Source: an uncultured Clostridia bacterium
GTDB taxonomy: Bacteria; Bacillota_A; Clostridia; Oscillospirales; Oscillospiraceae
NCBI GenBank assembly: GCA_947307375.1
Contig: CAMZIX010000096.1
Span: forward strand, 1-5,050
Direction: 5' to 3'
Length of the DNA stretch: 5,050 bases
Of the stretch, positions 1 through 5,050 are shown piece after piece. A program made the position numbers and the translations under genes. Each line of letters opens with the position of its first letter. The first letter of the stretch is position 1. Under the pieces are notes generated by a model, which was not told the origin of the DNA, did no database searches, and worked only from the letters and a program-made list of their open reading frames with translations.

Positions 1-452
1 GGCAGCTGCTCGTCCTCGATGCGCGCCTCCAGGCCGCTCAGCAGGAACAGGCCGAGGAGGAAGCCGAGGCCGACGCCCAGAGCGCTCAGCAGCACCGCGG
101 CGAGGCTGTCGGCGGCGGTGAGCTGCAGGGCGGCCGCCAGCACCGCGCTGTTGAGCGCGATGACCGGGAAGAACACGCCGAGGCGCTTGCCCAGCAGCAG
201 CTGCAGCAGATACACCAGCACGAGCACCACGGCAGCCGCGGCGAGGGTCAGCGCCCAGGCCGGGAGCAGGCCGCGCAGCAGCCACAGGATCAGCGAGGCG
301 AGCACGCTCACTGCCGTGACGGACAGGCCGAGCGCCAGGATCTTCTCCCGCTTTGAGGAGAAGCCCAGCAGCGGCGTCAGGCCGAAATACGCGGACAGCG
401 CGTAGTTGTTGACCAGGACGAAGCCCAGTACCAGAACGATCATTTCCTTCAT
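1..452 (-). CDS. rnfA: Rnf electron transport complex subunit RnfA, divergent, partial (3' end outside window)
   Basis: RnfA (NqrE family) is the six-helix partner of RnfE. The first 150 codons, of about 190 expected, are visible and read MKEMIVLVLGFVLVNNYALS at the start, which matches the family's VLVNNFVLS signature. About five hydrophobic segments can be seen (near 3-24, 38-60, 65-87, 91-112, 117-140). The two family cluster-cysteine positions are changed: FLGLCPFLG is YFGLTPLLG here (Thr26, codon 377-375) and LPLITTNCAVLG is FPVIALNSAVLA (Ser102, codon 149-147). No cysteine occurs in the visible part. The loop before the second motif is shorter than usual, with the SPxLYRxLG segment largely missing. 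The ATG at 452 overlaps the rnfE stop as ATGA and has AAGGAGG 7 nt upstream; an ATG three codons later is less well placed. The last helix and any rnfB lie to the left of the window. Confidence 0.91.
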   Translation of the reverse strand, partial: MKEMIVLVLGFVLVNNYALSAYFGLTPLLGFSSKREKILALGLSVTAVSVLASLILWLLRGLLPAWALTLAAAAVVLVLVYLLQLLLGKRLGVFFPVIALNSAVLAAALQLTAADSLAAVLLSALGVGLGFLLGLFLLSGLEARIEDEQL

Positions 453-1072
453 GCTTCGGCCTCCTTATCTTCCGGCGCAAGGCCGACGGCGGCGCGGGTC
501 AGCGCGCCCCCGACTTCCTCGCCGGGGAAGAGCCTGTTGACGACGGCCAGCAGGACGGCGAACAGGATCAGGCCGCCCGCGGGCTGGGCCAGCAGCGGGA
601 TGCGGATGTTTTTGAGCGCTGCGATCTCATGGCCGGCAAAGCTCGCCGAGCCGAAGAGCTCGCGCAGCACGGCGAGGACGAACACGAACACGGCGAAGCA
701 CAGCGCGCTGAGCACGGCGCGGCCGAGCGCAGGGCCGAGGTCTTCGTCAAAGGCCCGCTCCGCGGCGGAGAAGAGCAGCAGATCGACCGCGAGCACCGCC
801 AGGTACACGCCCAGCATCGAGGCGGCAGAGGGCAGGATCGCCTGCAGCAGCAGCTGTGTCATCGAGGCAAAGCCCGCCACCGTCAGCACGGCGGCCGGGA
901 GCTTCGCTTCCGCGGGGATCAGCCTGCGGATCAGACCCAGCAGCAGCGTGGAGAAGAAGGTGATCAGGATGACCGCGAGGGACATGCCGAGGGCAGCGGT
1001 CAGGCTGACGGAGCCCGCCAGAACAGGCGTTGCGCCCAGGAACAGGATCGTGACCGGATGCAGTTTCTTCAT
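449..1072 (-). CDS. rnfE: Rnf electron transport complex subunit RnfE, divergent, cluster cysteines absent
   Basis: RnfE (NqrD family) is a six-helix membrane protein that pairs with RnfA around an intramembrane [2Fe-2S] cluster. The 207 residues contain about six hydrophobic segments and recognisable family landmarks: HPVTILFLGATPVLA at 5-19 (canonical NPxxVxLLGLCPLLA), RRLIPAEAKLPA at 49-60 (canonical PxEIRIP), LGVYLAVLAVDLLLFSAAERAF at 87-108 (canonical LGIFIPLIVxNCxxxGRAEAFA), and LRELFG at 136-141. At the two cluster positions the cysteines are replaced by Thr15 and Leu98; the only cysteine, Cys125, is elsewhere. The N-terminus is about ten residues shorter than usual. Extension is impossible because the upstream frame is closed by the rnfG TGA five codons before the start. 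The ATG at 1072 has GGAGGT 6 nt upstream. The gene overlaps rnfA by 4 nt. Membership is clear from motifs and position; ordinary RnfE function is doubtful. Confidence 0.9.
   Translation of the reverse strand: MKKLHPVTILFLGATPVLAGSVSLTAALGMSLAVILITFFSTLLLGLIRRLIPAEAKLPAAVLTVAGFASMTQLLLQAILPSAASMLGVYLAVLAVDLLLFSAAERAFDEDLGPALGRAVLSALCFAVFVFVLAVLRELFGSASFAGHEIAALKNIRIPLLAQPAGGLILFAVLLAVVNRLFPGEEVGGALTRAAVGLAPEDKEAEA
460..466 (-). promoter_or_regulatory. Shine-Dalgarno sequence of rnfA
   Basis: AAGGAGG inside the last codons of rnfE, 7 nt before the ATG at 452. It supports this start over the ATG at 443 and the ATGA overlap between rnfE and rnfA. Confidence 0.75.
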
Positions 1073-1078
1073 GTGCGC

Positions 1079-1084
1079 ACCTCC
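1079..1084 (-). promoter_or_regulatory. Shine-Dalgarno sequence of rnfE
   Basis: GGAGGT directly follows the rnfG TGA and lies 6 nt before the ATG at 1072. It confirms the short RnfE N-terminus, because the in-frame stop just upstream rules out an earlier start. Confidence 0.78.
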
Positions 1085-2320
1085 TCAGTTCCCGGTGCCG
1101 AGGCGAAAGGCCTCGAACACGTCCCGCGTCGCGGTATCGACCGCTTCGCTGCTCATCGTGGCGCCGGTGATCAGCGCCTGTTCGCCGGTGTAGGCGTCCC
1201 CGGTGAGGCCGACAAAGCCCTCCTTGTAGGAAGCCTCGTCCAGCGTGTAGTTGCTGAAGTATTCGCTGTGCAGGATGAGTTCCTTGGCGCGCATCGTCAC
1301 GATCGCGCCGTTCTCGTCCAGCACGTACCAGAGCTCCATGACCTCGTTGGCGTAGCCGTAGGGCCGCGCGGCGAAGGCGTAGAACGTCTCGTCCCCCGCC
1401 TGCACGGAATAGGCGCCGGTGACGGAATTGGCCAGGCCCTCGAGCTGCATCGGCTCCAGAACGGCGCCCTCGGGCAGGAGCTTGGCCAGCGCCTTCTGCT
1501 GCGCCTCGTGCGGGTCGTCGTTGACCGGGGCGGCGAGCTCGGCGACCGCGCCCAGCAGCGCGGGCTCGTCGACGCGATTGCCCTCGAGATCGAAGATCAT
1601 CACGCCGCCGACAACGCTCGCCACGCCGAGCCGGGCGTTCTCGCCGTCCTGGATGAACCAGGCGGAGCCGCTGCCGTTGGCGGCCTTATAGCCCTTGGTC
1701 ACGGCGCCGCTGCCCTCGAGCTCCTCGCCCTGGATGGCGCCGGCCTTGTTGACAAGGCCCGGATAGACGCTCGGGACCAGCTCGGCCAGCAGCTGCTCGG
1801 CGCTCTTCTGGCCGGCGGTGATCAGGCCGTTGTCGATCAGGGTGTTCATGCCGTCGGAGACGGCGCTGCGGATGGCGGAGGAGGAGAAGGTCACGCCCGC
1901 GACCAGCTCCACGCCGCCCAGGGCGGAATCCTGCCCGCTGAAGCTCGGGAGGAAGGCCTCGCCGAGATCCTTGTCGTCAGAATTCTGCACGAGCTGCAGA
2001 TCGGCGATCTTTCCCTCGTAGTCGACCGTCAGCTTCAGCTCGATCGGGCCGTGGGAATAGCCCTCGCTGGTGCTGAGATCCAGGGTAAAGAGCTGCTTGG
2101 TGTCGTCCCGATAGACGCTCCTGACGGTATCGGCCGTGACGGCGAGCGCGGAGGCGGCGGGGTCGGCGGCGTCGTAGATCAGCACCGCGTCGCCCAGCAG
2201 CTTCTTCGCGTTGGCTTCGACGATCGGCGCGGTCAGGGCGTTCATGCCCCAGCTCGCGGCGAGCATCACGGCCAGGATCAGCACCAGGCAAAGGAGAGAA
2301 CGAAGCGTATTGTTTTTCAT
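1085..2320 (-). CDS. rnfG: RnfG-like subunit, extended, with two flavin-attachment motifs
   Basis: RnfG is anchored by one N-terminal helix and exposes a covalently FMN-loaded domain outside the cytoplasmic membrane. Here one hydrophobic helix (about residues 8-25) is followed by a region of about 385 residues, roughly twice the usual RnfG (about 180-220 residues in total). It reads as three related units, each with a V-x3-Y strand and, 34-37 residues later, a D-x-x-G-x-I/V turn: Val66/Asp100, Val207/Asp244 and Val300/Asp335. Unit 1 ends in AGVTFSS (Thr144) and unit 3 in the canonical TGATMSS (Thr388), both candidate FMN sites; unit 2 lacks such a motif. I chose the ATG at 2320 because GGAGGTGA sits 5 nt upstream; a GTG at 2329 would add three residues but lies inside that Shine-Dalgarno sequence. 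The gene is 1 nt after the rnfD stop and 12 nt before rnfE. Identity rests on position, the anchor and the TGAT domain; the repeat reading is inference. Confidence 0.88.
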   Translation of the reverse strand: MKNNTLRSLLCLVLILAVMLAASWGMNALTAPIVEANAKKLLGDAVLIYDAADPAASALAVTADTVRSVYRDDTKQLFTLDLSTSEGYSHGPIELKLTVDYEGKIADLQLVQNSDDKDLGEAFLPSFSGQDSALGGVELVAGVTFSSSAIRSAVSDGMNTLIDNGLITAGQKSAEQLLAELVPSVYPGLVNKAGAIQGEELEGSGAVTKGYKAANGSGSAWFIQDGENARLGVASVVGGVMIFDLEGNRVDEPALLGAVAELAAPVNDDPHEAQQKALAKLLPEGAVLEPMQLEGLANSVTGAYSVQAGDETFYAFAARPYGYANEVMELWYVLDENGAIVTMRAKELILHSEYFSNYTLDEASYKEGFVGLTGDAYTGEQALITGATMSSEAVDTATRDVFEAFRLGTGN

Positions 2321-2321
2321 C

Positions 2322-3248
2322 TCATTCACCTCCCAGCGGCTTTCTGCGCGTCCATTTCTCGAGCCAGGGCGCGAGGATGTTCATGCAGAGGATCGAGAAG
2401 GACACGCCCTCGGGATAGGCGCAGAAGAAGCGGATCACAAAGGTGATCAGGCCGCAGCCCAGCGCGAAGAGCAGCTTGCCCTCGAGGTTGATGGGCGTGG
2501 TGCTGTAGTCGGTGGCCATGAACACGGCGCCGAGCACCAGGCCGCCGGCGAGGATCTCGTATGTTGCCGTGACAAGGCTGCCGGTGGCGAACAGCGACAG
2601 CACGAAGACCGTGCCGACGAAGATCACCGGGATCTGCCAGCGGATCACGCGGCGCAGCAGCAGATAGGCGAAGCCCAGCAGCAGCGCGAGGATGCAGCCC
2701 TCGCCGATGGCGCCGCCGCGCAGGCCCAGGAACATGTCCAGCAGCGTGGGCAGCTGCGCGCCCTCGGTGCCGATCAGCTCCAGAGGCGTCGCGGAGGAGA
2801 CCGCGTCGACCATCCGGGGCGCGGCGCCGCCGGCCACGGTGGAGCTGAAGGCCGCCAGCAGGAACACACGGGCGGTGATGGCGGGGTTGGCGAAGTTGCG
2901 CCCGATGCCGCCGAAGGCGCCCTTGACGAGCACGATGGCGAAGACGCTTCCCAGCACGCACTGCCAGACGGGCACGTTCACGCTCAGGTTCAGCGCGAGC
3001 AGCAGGCCGGTCACGACGGCGCTCAGGTCGCCGACGGTCTGCTCCCGGCGGGTGCAGAGGTTAAACAGGTACTCGGCCGCGACCGCGCTGACGACGCAGG
3101 CGAGGATGACCCACAGGGCGGGCAGGCCGTAGAGGATCAGGCCGGCGACCGTGGCGGGAAGCAGGGCGAGGATCACGTCCAGCATGATCCGGCGGCTGCT
3201 GTCCTTGCTGTGGATATGAGGGCCGGCGCCCATGACGGGTGTACTCAT
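2322..3248 (-). CDS. rnfD: Rnf electron transport complex subunit RnfD
   Basis: Polytopic membrane subunit, homologous to NqrB, carrying covalent FMN. The 308 residues are close to the usual length and hold roughly nine or ten hydrophobic segments. Family motifs are well kept: PHIHSKDSSRRIMLDV near 10-25, TVGDLSAVVTGLLLALNL at 71-88, GGIGRNFANPAITARVF at 113-129, DAVSSATPL at 148-156, MATDYSTTPIN at 244-254, and YPEGVSFSILCMN at 278-290. The FMN-attachment threonine is Thr154 (codon 2789-2787), with the expected Asp six residues before it; SSAT replaces the usual SGAT. The ATG start at 3248 has AGGAGGG 9 nt upstream, inside the end of rnfC. The TGA stop is 1 nt before the favoured rnfG start. 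This is the most canonical membrane subunit in the window. Confidence 0.96.
   Translation of the reverse strand: MSTPVMGAGPHIHSKDSSRRIMLDVILALLPATVAGLILYGLPALWVILACVVSAVAAEYLFNLCTRREQTVGDLSAVVTGLLLALNLSVNVPVWQCVLGSVFAIVLVKGAFGGIGRNFANPAITARVFLLAAFSSTVAGGAAPRMVDAVSSATPLELIGTEGAQLPTLLDMFLGLRGGAIGEGCILALLLGFAYLLLRRVIRWQIPVIFVGTVFVLSLFATGSLVTATYEILAGGLVLGAVFMATDYSTTPINLEGKLLFALGCGLITFVIRFFCAYPEGVSFSILCMNILAPWLEKWTRRKPLGGE
2326..2333 (-). promoter_or_regulatory. Shine-Dalgarno sequence fixing the ATG start of rnfG
   Basis: GGAGGTGA on the minus strand lies in the last codons of rnfD, 5 nt before ATG at 2320 (8 nt counted from the GGAGG core). A GTG at 2329 falls inside this element and so is unlikely to be the start, although it would lengthen the protein in frame by three residues. 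Confidence 0.75.
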
Positions 3249-3251
3249 GCC

Positions 3252-4589
3252 TTACTTCCCTCCTTCCTTGTGCGCGCGCTCCCAGCTGCGGATGAAGCCG
3301 ATCGCGGCGCTGTTGGTCGCGGCCAGCGGGCGGTGGGACGGGCAGACGTAGCTGCAGCAGCCGCACTCCATGCAGACCTTGACCTGCTCCTGCGTCAGGA
3401 TGGCGGCGCGCTTTTCGTCGTCCTCCAGCTGCATCGCGCGATCGAAGGCCGTGGGGTTCAGGCTCAGCGGGCAGACCGCCACGCAGCGGCCGCAGTGGAT
3501 GCAGGGCGAGGGCTCCGTCTTCGCGGCGTCCTTCTGATTCATGATGACGACGGCGTTGGTCGCCTTGAGGATGTGCGCGTCCAGCGACTCCTGGGTCTTG
3601 CCCATCATCGCGCCGCCGAAGAGGATCTTGCCGGGCTCTTCCTTCAGCCCGCCGCAGGCCTCCACGACGTCGCGCACGGAGACGCCGATCGGCACGATCA
3701 GGTTCTTCGGCTCTTTGACCGCCGAGCCGTCGACCGTGATGATGCGCTCGACCATCGGCATGCCGGTGACGAAGTACTCCGCCATCTTGATCAGCGAGGA
3801 GACGTTGATGATGATCACGCCGAGGCTCGCCAGACGCTCGCCCTTTTTGACCACCTTGCCGGTGGCGTTGTAGAGCAGCACCTGCTTGGCGCCCTGGGGA
3901 TACACGCTGCTCAGCTCCATGACCTTGACGGCCGGATCGTTCGCAAAGCGCTCCTTCATCGCGGCGATGGCGTCCGGCTTGTTCTTCTCGATGCCGAGGA
4001 TGAACTCCTCGCTGCCCAGAAACTCCTTCAGCAGCTCCACGCCCTTCTGGACCAGCTCGCCGCACTCCAGCATGGCGCGGTGGTCGCTGGTGATGAAGGG
4101 CTCGCACTCCGCGCCGTTGATGAGCACGGTCTTGATGTGCGTCTTCTGCGCGGCGGAGAGCTTGGACCACACGGGGTAGGCCGCGCCGCCGAGGCCGACC
4201 GTGCCGCTCAGGCGCACGGCCTGCAGGAACTCGTCCAGGTTCGTGGGATGCGGGATCGGCAGATCGGGGTATTTTTCCATTTTGCCGTCGCTCTCGATGC
4301 GGACGGCGATGGCCTTGTGCGCGCCTTGGGACCAGGGCTCGATGGCCGTGACCGTGCCGGAGACCGAGGCGTGGATGTCCGCGCTGCCGCGATCCTTTTC
4401 CTTGCCGATCAGCTGTCCGACCCGGACGTGATCGCCGACCTGCACGACGGGCTCGGCCGAGGTAGCCGAGTGCGAGTTCATCGGCGACAGCGGCAGAAGC
4501 ACCTCTTTGGGTACCGGGATGCGCACGGCGGCACAGCCGGCCGTGCTTTTATAATGGGGTAATTTCAGGGTCGAAATCGTTCTCTTCAA
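3252..4589 (-). CDS. rnfC: Rnf electron transport complex subunit RnfC
   Basis: Peripheral cytoplasmic subunit that exchanges electrons with NAD(H) through bound FMN and two [4Fe-4S] clusters. The 445 residues match the usual clostridial length. In order: a hammerhead/lipoyl-like N-terminal part (VGDHVRVGQLIG at 51-62, HASVSGTV at 73-80); the glycine-rich flavin/NADH site at 126-144 (SGTVGLGGAAYP); NGAECEPFITSDHR at 158-171; YPQGAKQVLL at 230-239; GMPMVERIITVDG at 276-288; FGGAMMGK at 324-331; then two cluster motifs, Cys363/366/369/373 and Cys406/409/412/416, each ending CP. The N-terminal GGxHxP segment seen in most RnfC proteins is missing or shortened (TLKLPHYK here). The start is TTG at 4589, chosen because AGGAGG lies 9 nt upstream and no ATG is near. 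The gap to apbE is 15 nt and to rnfD 3 nt. All key residues I can recognise for the NADH-side redox work are present. Confidence 0.97.
   Translation of the reverse strand: MKRTISTLKLPHYKSTAGCAAVRIPVPKEVLLPLSPMNSHSATSAEPVVQVGDHVRVGQLIGKEKDRGSADIHASVSGTVTAIEPWSQGAHKAIAVRIESDGKMEKYPDLPIPHPTNLDEFLQAVRLSGTVGLGGAAYPVWSKLSAAQKTHIKTVLINGAECEPFITSDHRAMLECGELVQKGVELLKEFLGSEEFILGIEKNKPDAIAAMKERFANDPAVKVMELSSVYPQGAKQVLLYNATGKVVKKGERLASLGVIIINVSSLIKMAEYFVTGMPMVERIITVDGSAVKEPKNLIVPIGVSVRDVVEACGGLKEEPGKILFGGAMMGKTQESLDAHILKATNAVVIMNQKDAAKTEPSPCIHCGRCVAVCPLSLNPTAFDRAMQLEDDEKRAAILTQEQVKVCMECGCCSYVCPSHRPLAATNSAAIGFIRSWERAHKEGGK
3258..3263 (-). promoter_or_regulatory. Shine-Dalgarno sequence of rnfD
   Basis: GGAGGG inside the last codons of rnfC, 9 nt before the ATG at 3248; the rnfC stop lies between the site and the start, so the two genes are likely translationally coupled. 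Confidence 0.7.
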
Positions 4590-4598
4590 ACGTTCCCG

Positions 4599-4604
4599 CC
4601 TCCT
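4599..4604 (-). promoter_or_regulatory. Shine-Dalgarno sequence fixing the TTG start of rnfC
   Basis: On the minus strand AGGAGG begins immediately after the apbE TAA stop and lies 9 nt before TTG at 4589. No ATG or GTG with comparable spacing is present, so TTG is the likely start. The stop-SD junction suggests that ribosomes finishing apbE help start rnfC. Confidence 0.8.
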
Positions 4605-5050
4605 TTACTTGATTTCCTCGATCCATGCGGCGAAGCCGGAGCTCGTGCGCTGCTCCCCGTCCGGGAAGATCCACAGCACGTCCACGCCCTCCAGGCTCTC
4701 CGCGAGCTGCAGGCCCTCGTCAAAGGGCATGCAGAACAGCGCCGTCGACAGGGCGTCGGCCAGGCCGCTGTCCCTTGTGATCACCGTCAGCGAATCGTAG
4801 TACGCCGCCGGGTACAGGGTGTCTTTGTCGATGATATGGTGGTATCTTGTGCCGTTTACCGTGAAATATCGCTCGTATACGCCGGAGGTCACGCAGGAGG
4901 TGTCGCTGATGCGGATGCGCAGGGCGTAATCCTCCGCCTCGCTGTCCGGGTTCCGGATGGCCGTGACCCAGCCGCTGCCGTCCGGCCGCGTGCCAATGCA
5001 GCGGATGTTGCCGCCGACGTTGAGCACATAGCCGCAGGCTCCCTCGCTCT
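4605..5050 (-). CDS. apbE: FAD:protein FMN transferase ApbE, C-terminal part (5' end outside window)
   Basis: ApbE moves FMN from FAD onto a threonine of target proteins with Mg2+; RnfD and RnfG are classic targets, acting at or outside the membrane. About 147 C-terminal residues are visible, under half of the usual 300-350. They show the family order: VLNVGGNIRCIG (canonical VNLGGN), SGVYERYF, HHIID followed by a TLYPA stretch (the clostridial form of HIIDPxTGxP), and ADALSTALF near position 4750, whose Asp (4757-4755) and Thr (4745-4743) match the metal-ligand positions of the family. The frame stays open to the window edge, so the GTG at 5027 is an internal valine codon and the true start lies to the right. 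The gene ends with TAA at 4607-4605, directly followed by the rnfC Shine-Dalgarno sequence, which puts it in the rnf operon. The family assignment is secure; serving RnfD and RnfG is inferred from position. Confidence 0.93.
   Translation of the reverse strand, partial: SEGACGYVLNVGGNIRCIGTRPDGSGWVTAIRNPDSEAEDYALRIRISDTSCVTSGVYERYFTVNGTRYHHIIDKDTLYPAAYYDSLTVITRDSGLADALSTALFCMPFDEGLQLAESLEGVDVLWIFPDGEQRTSSGFAAWIEEIK

Follow-up and report, generated by a model that had tools for sequence, protein, structure and literature searches.

An Rnf-type complex without the membrane [2Fe-2S] ligands is conserved in a clade of gut bacteria related to Oscillospiraceae

We examined a 5,050-nucleotide stretch of DNA from an uncultured Clostridia bacterium of the Oscillospiraceae (positions 1 to 5,050 of contig CAMZIX010000096.1, assembly GCA_947307375.1; hereafter the window), which carries an Rnf operon in the order apbE-rnfC-rnfD-rnfG-rnfE-rnfA. 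The four cysteines that hold the [2Fe-2S] cluster in the membrane subunits RnfA and RnfE are all replaced, and this cluster-free Rnf defines a conserved clade of gut bacteria related to Oscillospiraceae. We consider it probable, from the sequences compared, that the operon encodes a derived half-Rnf without the ferredoxin arm, in which electrons would flow from NADH through RnfC, RnfD and RnfG to extracytosolic flavins. All six frames lie on the minus strand and are open and closely spaced, as the initial annotation of this DNA had it, although the end genes apbE and rnfA are incomplete and run off the window, which went unmentioned there. Pfam assigns ApbE, RnfC, RnfD, RnfG (FMN_bind), RnfE and RnfA among the window proteins.

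The state of the cluster site was read from phmmer alignments of RnfA and RnfE to chains of 9eri and 7zc6. RnfE (449..1072, minus strand, as are all window genes and sites given below) matches PF02508 at 82.2 bits and 9eri_E with an E-value of 6.4e-17. RnfA (3..452), of which 150 of about 176 residues are encoded before the window start cuts the gene, matches PF02508 at 76.4 bits and 7zc6_A with an E-value of 4.1e-14. The ligand positions are occupied by Thr26 (375..377) and Ser102 (147..149) in RnfA, aligned to 7zc6_A, and by Thr15 (1028..1030) and Leu98 (779..781) in RnfE, aligned to 9eri_E, in agreement with the earlier claim that all four membrane-cluster cysteines are gone. Both subunits score below the NCBIfam cut-offs, with 64.3 against 229.3 bits for the truncated RnfA and 70.1 against 213.4 bits for RnfE.

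The same replacement is found throughout the relatives of the window RnfE. A search with this protein (E ≤ 0.001) returned 239 proteins, its own entry included, and a search with RnfE from a second subclade (locus L031) returned 1072, which are not necessarily all members of that subclade. Among the 240 sequences listed, 120 from each search and the window's among them, none has a cysteine at either RnfE site, and one has a gap at site 1. The 120 matches listed for the L031 query, all at least 79% identical to it, carry Gly and Ala at the two sites. Since no cysteine appears at these sites in any of the 240, its loss cannot be attributed to chance or sequencing error. The subclade of the window, W, is represented by 15 loci (L001-L015) from a scan of genome contigs, and subclade V by four (L059, L060 and L113, plus L112, which was assigned on resemblance alone). 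At RnfA sites 1 and 2 and RnfE sites 1 and 2, the residues are Thr/Val/Ser, Ser/Ala, Val/Ala/Thr/Ile and Leu in W, and either Gly, Gly, Gly, Ala or Gly, Ser, Ala, Pro in V. The four cysteines are missing jointly, a pattern that the initial annotation proposed to survey, in 18/18 distinct cysteine-free operons tabulated and also in L112 and L113; one further locus, L114, is mixed. Twelve of the 15 W locus records are metagenome-assembled genomes and three bear the name uncultured Clostridiales isolate RUG...; the gut compartment of a goat or water buffalo is mentioned in five. A strict match threshold was met by 5 of 300 sampled genomes from the family of genome G001, by 2 of 63 from the family of genome G305 and, in a phylum-wide sample, by 1 of 398, namely G001 itself, which suggests that the variant is sparse by species.

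The gene for RnfB was not found next to rnfA in any of the 19 cluster-free loci (15 W and 4 V). A NusG_II frame begins before rnfA ends in all 17 of those measured, although the distance is exaggerated in four (L006, L009, L011 and L013), where frames were taken from the farthest start. In neighbouring lineages (L061-L068), rnfB occupies a gap of 738-896 bases after rnfA, and it is present in all 85 four-cysteine operons read (67 distinct and 18 more), a collection made up of the best-scoring set and 13 second copies rather than a random sample. The window's contig ends inside rnfA, so that we read this point from its relatives, and rnfB is presumably missing from the window's own organism too. 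Two of the locus searches covered the best 30 loci each and the third the best 20, such that lower-scoring divergent operons could be missed; L124, in which no RnfE was seen alongside RnfA and RnfB, was excluded from the counts. One mixed operon counts against a simple rule. The second divergent operon of genome G203 (L114:6730-12382, minus strand) has kept rnfB and both RnfE cysteines, but its RnfA has lost both cluster cysteines to Glu and Ala. The closest match to this RnfA among 295 genomes is no higher than 41% identity, and the 19 loci next-best to it have both RnfA cysteines in every case.

The cluster-free operons of W and V have a single origin. Maximum-likelihood trees of RnfC plus RnfD and of four subunits both unite W with V (L059 and L060) with support of 100/100, whereas resolution is lower for the branching within W and for the identity of the sister group. 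The trees contain 44 sequences, with L006 omitted because its contig is cut and one of the other 45 candidates dropped for an implausibly long frame; L112-L114 are not among them. Since RnfC and RnfD do not carry the lost cysteines, the tree built from them is free of bias from that loss. Among the neighbouring lineages, L061-L063 and L065-L068 retain rnfB and four cysteines, yet their RnfG is already 371-422 amino acids long and they carry NusG_II- and EetB-like genes. Both RnfG flavin motifs were confirmed in L061, L062 and L066, and L065 and L067 also have a related lipoprotein gene and apbE close by. Because these rnfB-bearing neighbours already possess the enlarged RnfG and the export genes, gain of the second flavin domain and of the genes for flavin export probably preceded loss of the ferredoxin arm.

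We compared the ratio of nonsynonymous to synonymous substitution rates (dN/dS) between loci. Pairwise dN/dS within W was below 1 throughout, including all 120 RnfE and all 120 RnfA pairs. The medians, restricted to pairs with dS of 0.05-0.5 and with L006 omitted for RnfC, RnfD and RnfG, were 0.16 for RnfC (35 of 105 pairs), 0.29 for RnfD (35 of 105), 0.30 for RnfG (13 of 105), 0.32 for RnfE (15 of 120) and 0.31 for RnfA (20 of 120). Ordinary copies in the same genomes gave 0.09, 0.18, 0.42, 0.28 and 0.18 for RnfC, RnfD, RnfG, RnfE and RnfA, from 12, 11, 13, 31 and 22 of 78 pairs, respectively. These medians indicate that RnfA and RnfE are constrained, though somewhat more loosely. The frames are open in the relatives' loci read, and the signs of decay named in the initial annotation, dN/dS near 1 with frameshifts in relatives, were not observed. 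Its suggestion that the operon shows no decay and encodes a working cluster-free complex with another electron path is supported by these values, by the fixation of cysteine loss in the clade and by the cofactor motifs described below.

The genomes of W typically encode an ordinary Rnf as well. A second strong Rnf-Nqr match was present in 14 of 15 genomes (none in G003, partial in G008), and an RnfB match above cut-off was likewise present in 14 of 15. The question raised earlier, whether a canonical Rnf occurs in the same genomes, was answered by the second operons fetched, which carry four cysteines and RnfB in 13/13 cases. Judged by match scores, a second pair and an RnfB are also present in two V genomes, G267 and G861. 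In the other two, G305 and G965, no match to a second Rnf pair or to RnfB passed the thresholds applied, the completeness of these genomes not being established, and the cluster-free complex may therefore be their only Rnf. The occurrence of an ordinary four-cysteine Rnf beside the cluster-free one suggests a division of labour, and we count it in favor of the proposed half-Rnf.

The subunits on the NADH and flavin side have retained their cofactor motifs. RnfC (3252..4589), the NADH/FMN subunit, scores 386 bits with TIGR01945, above the cut-off. Its cluster motifs CIHCGRCVAVC and CMECGCCSYVC (approximately 3330..3503) provide the eight cysteines noted at the outset, and both are found in all 16 W loci, the window included, and in both V loci inspected. 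With two [4Fe-4S] motifs and a score of this kind, an NqrA-type subunit without Fe-S is excluded. RnfD (2322..3248, 308 residues), the membrane flavin subunit, scores 281.7 bits with TIGR01946, again above the cut-off, and matches 7zc6_D with an E-value of 7e-88. It contains PF03116 alone and has no fused C-terminal NAD-binding PF00175. Thr154 (2787..2789) in its SSATPL motif is the predicted FMN attachment site and aligns with the FMN-carrying Thr153 of 7zc6, while N121 and D247 (2508..2510) align with Asn124 and Asp248, so that the residues of the Na+/riboflavin site proposed in the available text of PMC9588780 are kept. The pattern S[SG]ATPL occurs in RnfD of 16/16 W loci, counting the window, and of L060; it missed L059, but equally missed the ordinary RnfD of L017.

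RnfG (1085..2329, GTG start) is enlarged to 414 residues, compared with 179-195 for 11 of the 13 RnfG proteins from the second operons fetched; the other two are 280 and 222 residues long, from frames that are possibly over-long. Its predicted layout is a transmembrane helix, an RnfG-like FMN domain, a middle domain and a second FMN domain that resembles NqrC, and its NCBIfam score is under the cut-off. The predicted FMN-attachment threonines of the two domains, in AGVT (1889..1891) and TGAT (1157..1159), are invariant in 17/17 aligned RnfG sequences. The remaining gene, apbE (3' part, 4605..5048, cut by the window end), encodes an FAD:protein FMN transferase (PF02424, E 2.3e-36) and is complete in L001 (5400-6467, 356 residues). 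The RnfD and RnfG flavin threonines, the enlargement of RnfG and the presence of ApbE had all been pointed out from the window alone and hold up here. Separately, residues 196-270 of the RnfG model, between the flavin domains, form a fold of their own that matches polo-box domains with a modest Z score (up to 7.0).

Where the contig suffices, the gene order in W and V is lipoprotein-apbE-rnfC-rnfD-rnfG-rnfE-rnfA-NusG_II-EetB-like, with the exception of L112, in which an opposite-strand gene comes after rnfA. The Pfam names of the flanking genes were verified in L001, where ApbE is PF02424, the EetB-type protein is Hpre_diP_synt_I PF07456 and the NusG_II protein is of the EetA type. EetB of Listeria is an FAD exporter serving flavinylation according to the available part of PMC9973259. 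BLAST found an EetB-like gene in 14 of 15 W loci and none in L011. The lipoprotein has a lipobox cysteine and a repeated motif in 14/14 aligned sequences and no FMN_bind match.

In ordinary Rnf, electrons traverse the membrane twice, outward to RnfG and then inward to NAD+. The path leads from ferredoxin through RnfB, RnfA/E, RnfG, RnfD and RnfC to NAD+ (PMC9588780, in the text available), and the distances reported there are less than 5 Å between the FMNs of RnfG and RnfD, 7.7 Å from FMN to riboflavin and 11.7 Å from riboflavin to a [4Fe-4S] of RnfC. Such short distances suggest that the branch of RnfG, RnfD and RnfC could be self-sufficient. We propose that the first arm was removed here, with rnfB gone and the RnfA/E ligands lost, as the central cluster would no longer be needed after loss of RnfB, and that RnfA/E persist as a scaffold without the cluster. 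The second arm would be complete and run backwards, from NADH to the FMN and two [4Fe-4S] clusters of RnfC, then to the riboflavin and FMN of RnfD, and on to the first and second FMN of RnfG. RnfG would in turn probably pass electrons to the neighbouring lipoprotein, if this is flavinylated, and thence to an extracytosolic acceptor, with the EetB-like protein exporting FAD and ApbE attaching FMN, as judged by homology. Outward flow is suggested by the second flavin domain of RnfG, by the surface lipoprotein and ApbE encoded before rnfC, and by the lack of any recognisable extracytosolic electron donor among the neighbouring genes inspected, a set that does not amount to a full annotation. A route from NAD(H) on the inside to RnfG flavins on the outside had been offered as an example in the initial annotation; the loss of RnfB, the motifs of RnfC, RnfD and RnfG and the flavin-export and transfer genes all point to it. 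From these genes we infer the assembly of the complex, its electron direction, the flavinylation of the lipoprotein, the acceptor and a putative role as an NADH sink.

It is possible, though we think it unlikely, that NADH-to-extracytosolic-flavin flow via RnfD is still coupled to ions without [2Fe-2S] or RnfB, the coupling residing in RnfD alone and RnfA/E acting as a cluster-free gate or scaffold. Ion movement would then persist without the intramembrane [2Fe-2S] and its donor RnfB. Proposed mechanisms assign ion passage either to RnfA/E with the cluster or to RnfD (PMC12174285, in the text available), and a natural complex without cluster or RnfB that is kept by selection would be a ready-made test of the ion route.

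Electron uptake, with the shortened path running inward from an extracytosolic donor through RnfG, RnfD and RnfC to make NADH, seems rather improbable. It would use parts that are all kept, in the direction from RnfG to RnfC to NAD+ described for ordinary forward Rnf (PMC9588780, same text), but would require an outside electron donor with a potential close to or lower than that of NAD, and none was found among the same incompletely annotated neighbours. The flavin-export genes are compatible with both directions. We regard as quite improbable an ion pump of the ordinary type that borrows RnfB in trans from the second operon and replaces [2Fe-2S] by another cofactor or by direct hopping. RnfB is indeed encoded in all 13 second operons fetched and the proposed Na+-site residues are retained in RnfD, but the four positions vary across W and V with no conserved set of ligands, and G305 and G965, whose completeness is not established, lack a second pair or RnfB at the thresholds used. 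Slightly less credible still is a relay in which RnfA/E and RnfD merely anchor a surface flavoprotein chain fed by another enzyme and RnfC is vestigial; the multi-domain lipoprotein and RnfG would suit it, as would an oxidoreductase encoded upstream in three V loci, but RnfC keeps its eight cysteines and is the most constrained of the five subunits (median dN/dS 0.16). The least tenable alternative is a decaying duplicate without function, for although RnfA/E change more rapidly than RnfC/D, and to some extent more rapidly than their ordinary counterparts, the loci read have uninterrupted reading frames with little space between them, no RnfE or RnfA pair reaches a dN/dS of 1, the flavin threonines are invariant and the 240 listed cysteine-less RnfE sequences remain alignable.

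The proposed half-Rnf was compared with known systems. It shares with Rnf (7zc6, 9eri and 8ahx) homologues of RnfC, RnfD, RnfG, RnfE and RnfA in the same order, the RnfC motifs and the flavin threonines, but differs in lacking rnfB (as read from relatives) and [2Fe-2S] ligands, in the second RnfG flavin domain and in its low RnfA and RnfE NCBIfam scores. In the text available of PMC9588780, the four RnfA/E cysteines are called invariant and their region strictly conserved in Nqr and Rnf. Clusters with multi-flavinylated RnfG likewise have more than one FMN domain in this subunit, which was proposed to give electrons a further way out to extracytosolic acceptors (Meheust 2021, PMC8238504, in part); those clusters are defined by the presence of RnfB, whereas here, with the ferredoxin input gone, this further way out would be the sole one. 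The NQR/RNF-like two-subunit systems (PMC8238504 and PMC10979944, in part) are also proposed to move electrons one way from NAD(P)H to extracytosolic FMN via an RnfD/NqrB homologue. In these systems as described, RnfD carries a fused NqrF-type NAD domain and lacks a conserved flavinylation threonine, in contrast to the separate RnfC, intact RnfD threonine and retained RnfA/E seen here. The Listeria-type flavin electron transfer system clusters ApbE, an EetB-type FAD exporter, an EetA-type NusG_II protein and a lipoprotein in a similar manner. Electrons enter that system (ApbE/FmnB, EetB, PplA) via a membrane NADH dehydrogenase, an enzyme for which no search was made; here RnfC-RnfD would take this place. 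The form thus fits none of the classes compared: it would function like the two-subunit systems, has parts like those of multi-flavinylated Rnf and lacks two defining features of Rnf.

NQR is held to derive from a duplicated rnf operon after loss of rnfB (PMC4014512 and PMC12174285, in part), and RnfC was expected to lose its function after that loss (PMC4014512, in part). In Na+-NQR, NqrF was acquired, the central [2Fe-2S] retained and the RnfC cofactors lost, whereas in the cluster-free operons the cluster site is lost, RnfC is kept and nothing was seen to replace RnfB, no separate search for NqrF having been made. They illustrate a possible sequel to rnfB loss after operon duplication, the event from which NQR is proposed to have arisen, with the opposite fate for RnfC. 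No prior description of an RnfB-less, cluster-free Rnf was found in the open-licence literature searched, mostly at the level of listings. If the proposed electron flow is correct, anaerobes would have a further route for delivering NADH electrons to the cell surface. Name-based annotation, such as 'electron transport complex protein RnfE' on some members, would miscount the variant as ferredoxin-driven energy conservation.

Several minor observations were made on these loci. Two long plus-strand frames opposite the rnf genes (629-2446, 605 codons, and 2211-4562, 783 codons) were rejected as genes and are attributed to the GC richness of the coding sequence. Upstream of the lipoprotein gene, L003 has a frame (2607-4145) that encodes riboflavin kinase and FAD synthetase domains. 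The oxidoreductase with Fer4_20 and Pyr_redox_2 domains, which we take to be GltD/NfnB-like, precedes the lipoprotein gene in 3/3 V loci that reach this far (L059:197-1675, L060:564-1973 and L113:9846-11363). Lastly, the first membrane stretch of the window RnfE (950-1030, TPVLAGSVSLTAALG...) is unlike that of the 95% identical P0002 (VPALAASADVRAALG...) and agrees with that of the less similar P0005, as if it had been recombined.
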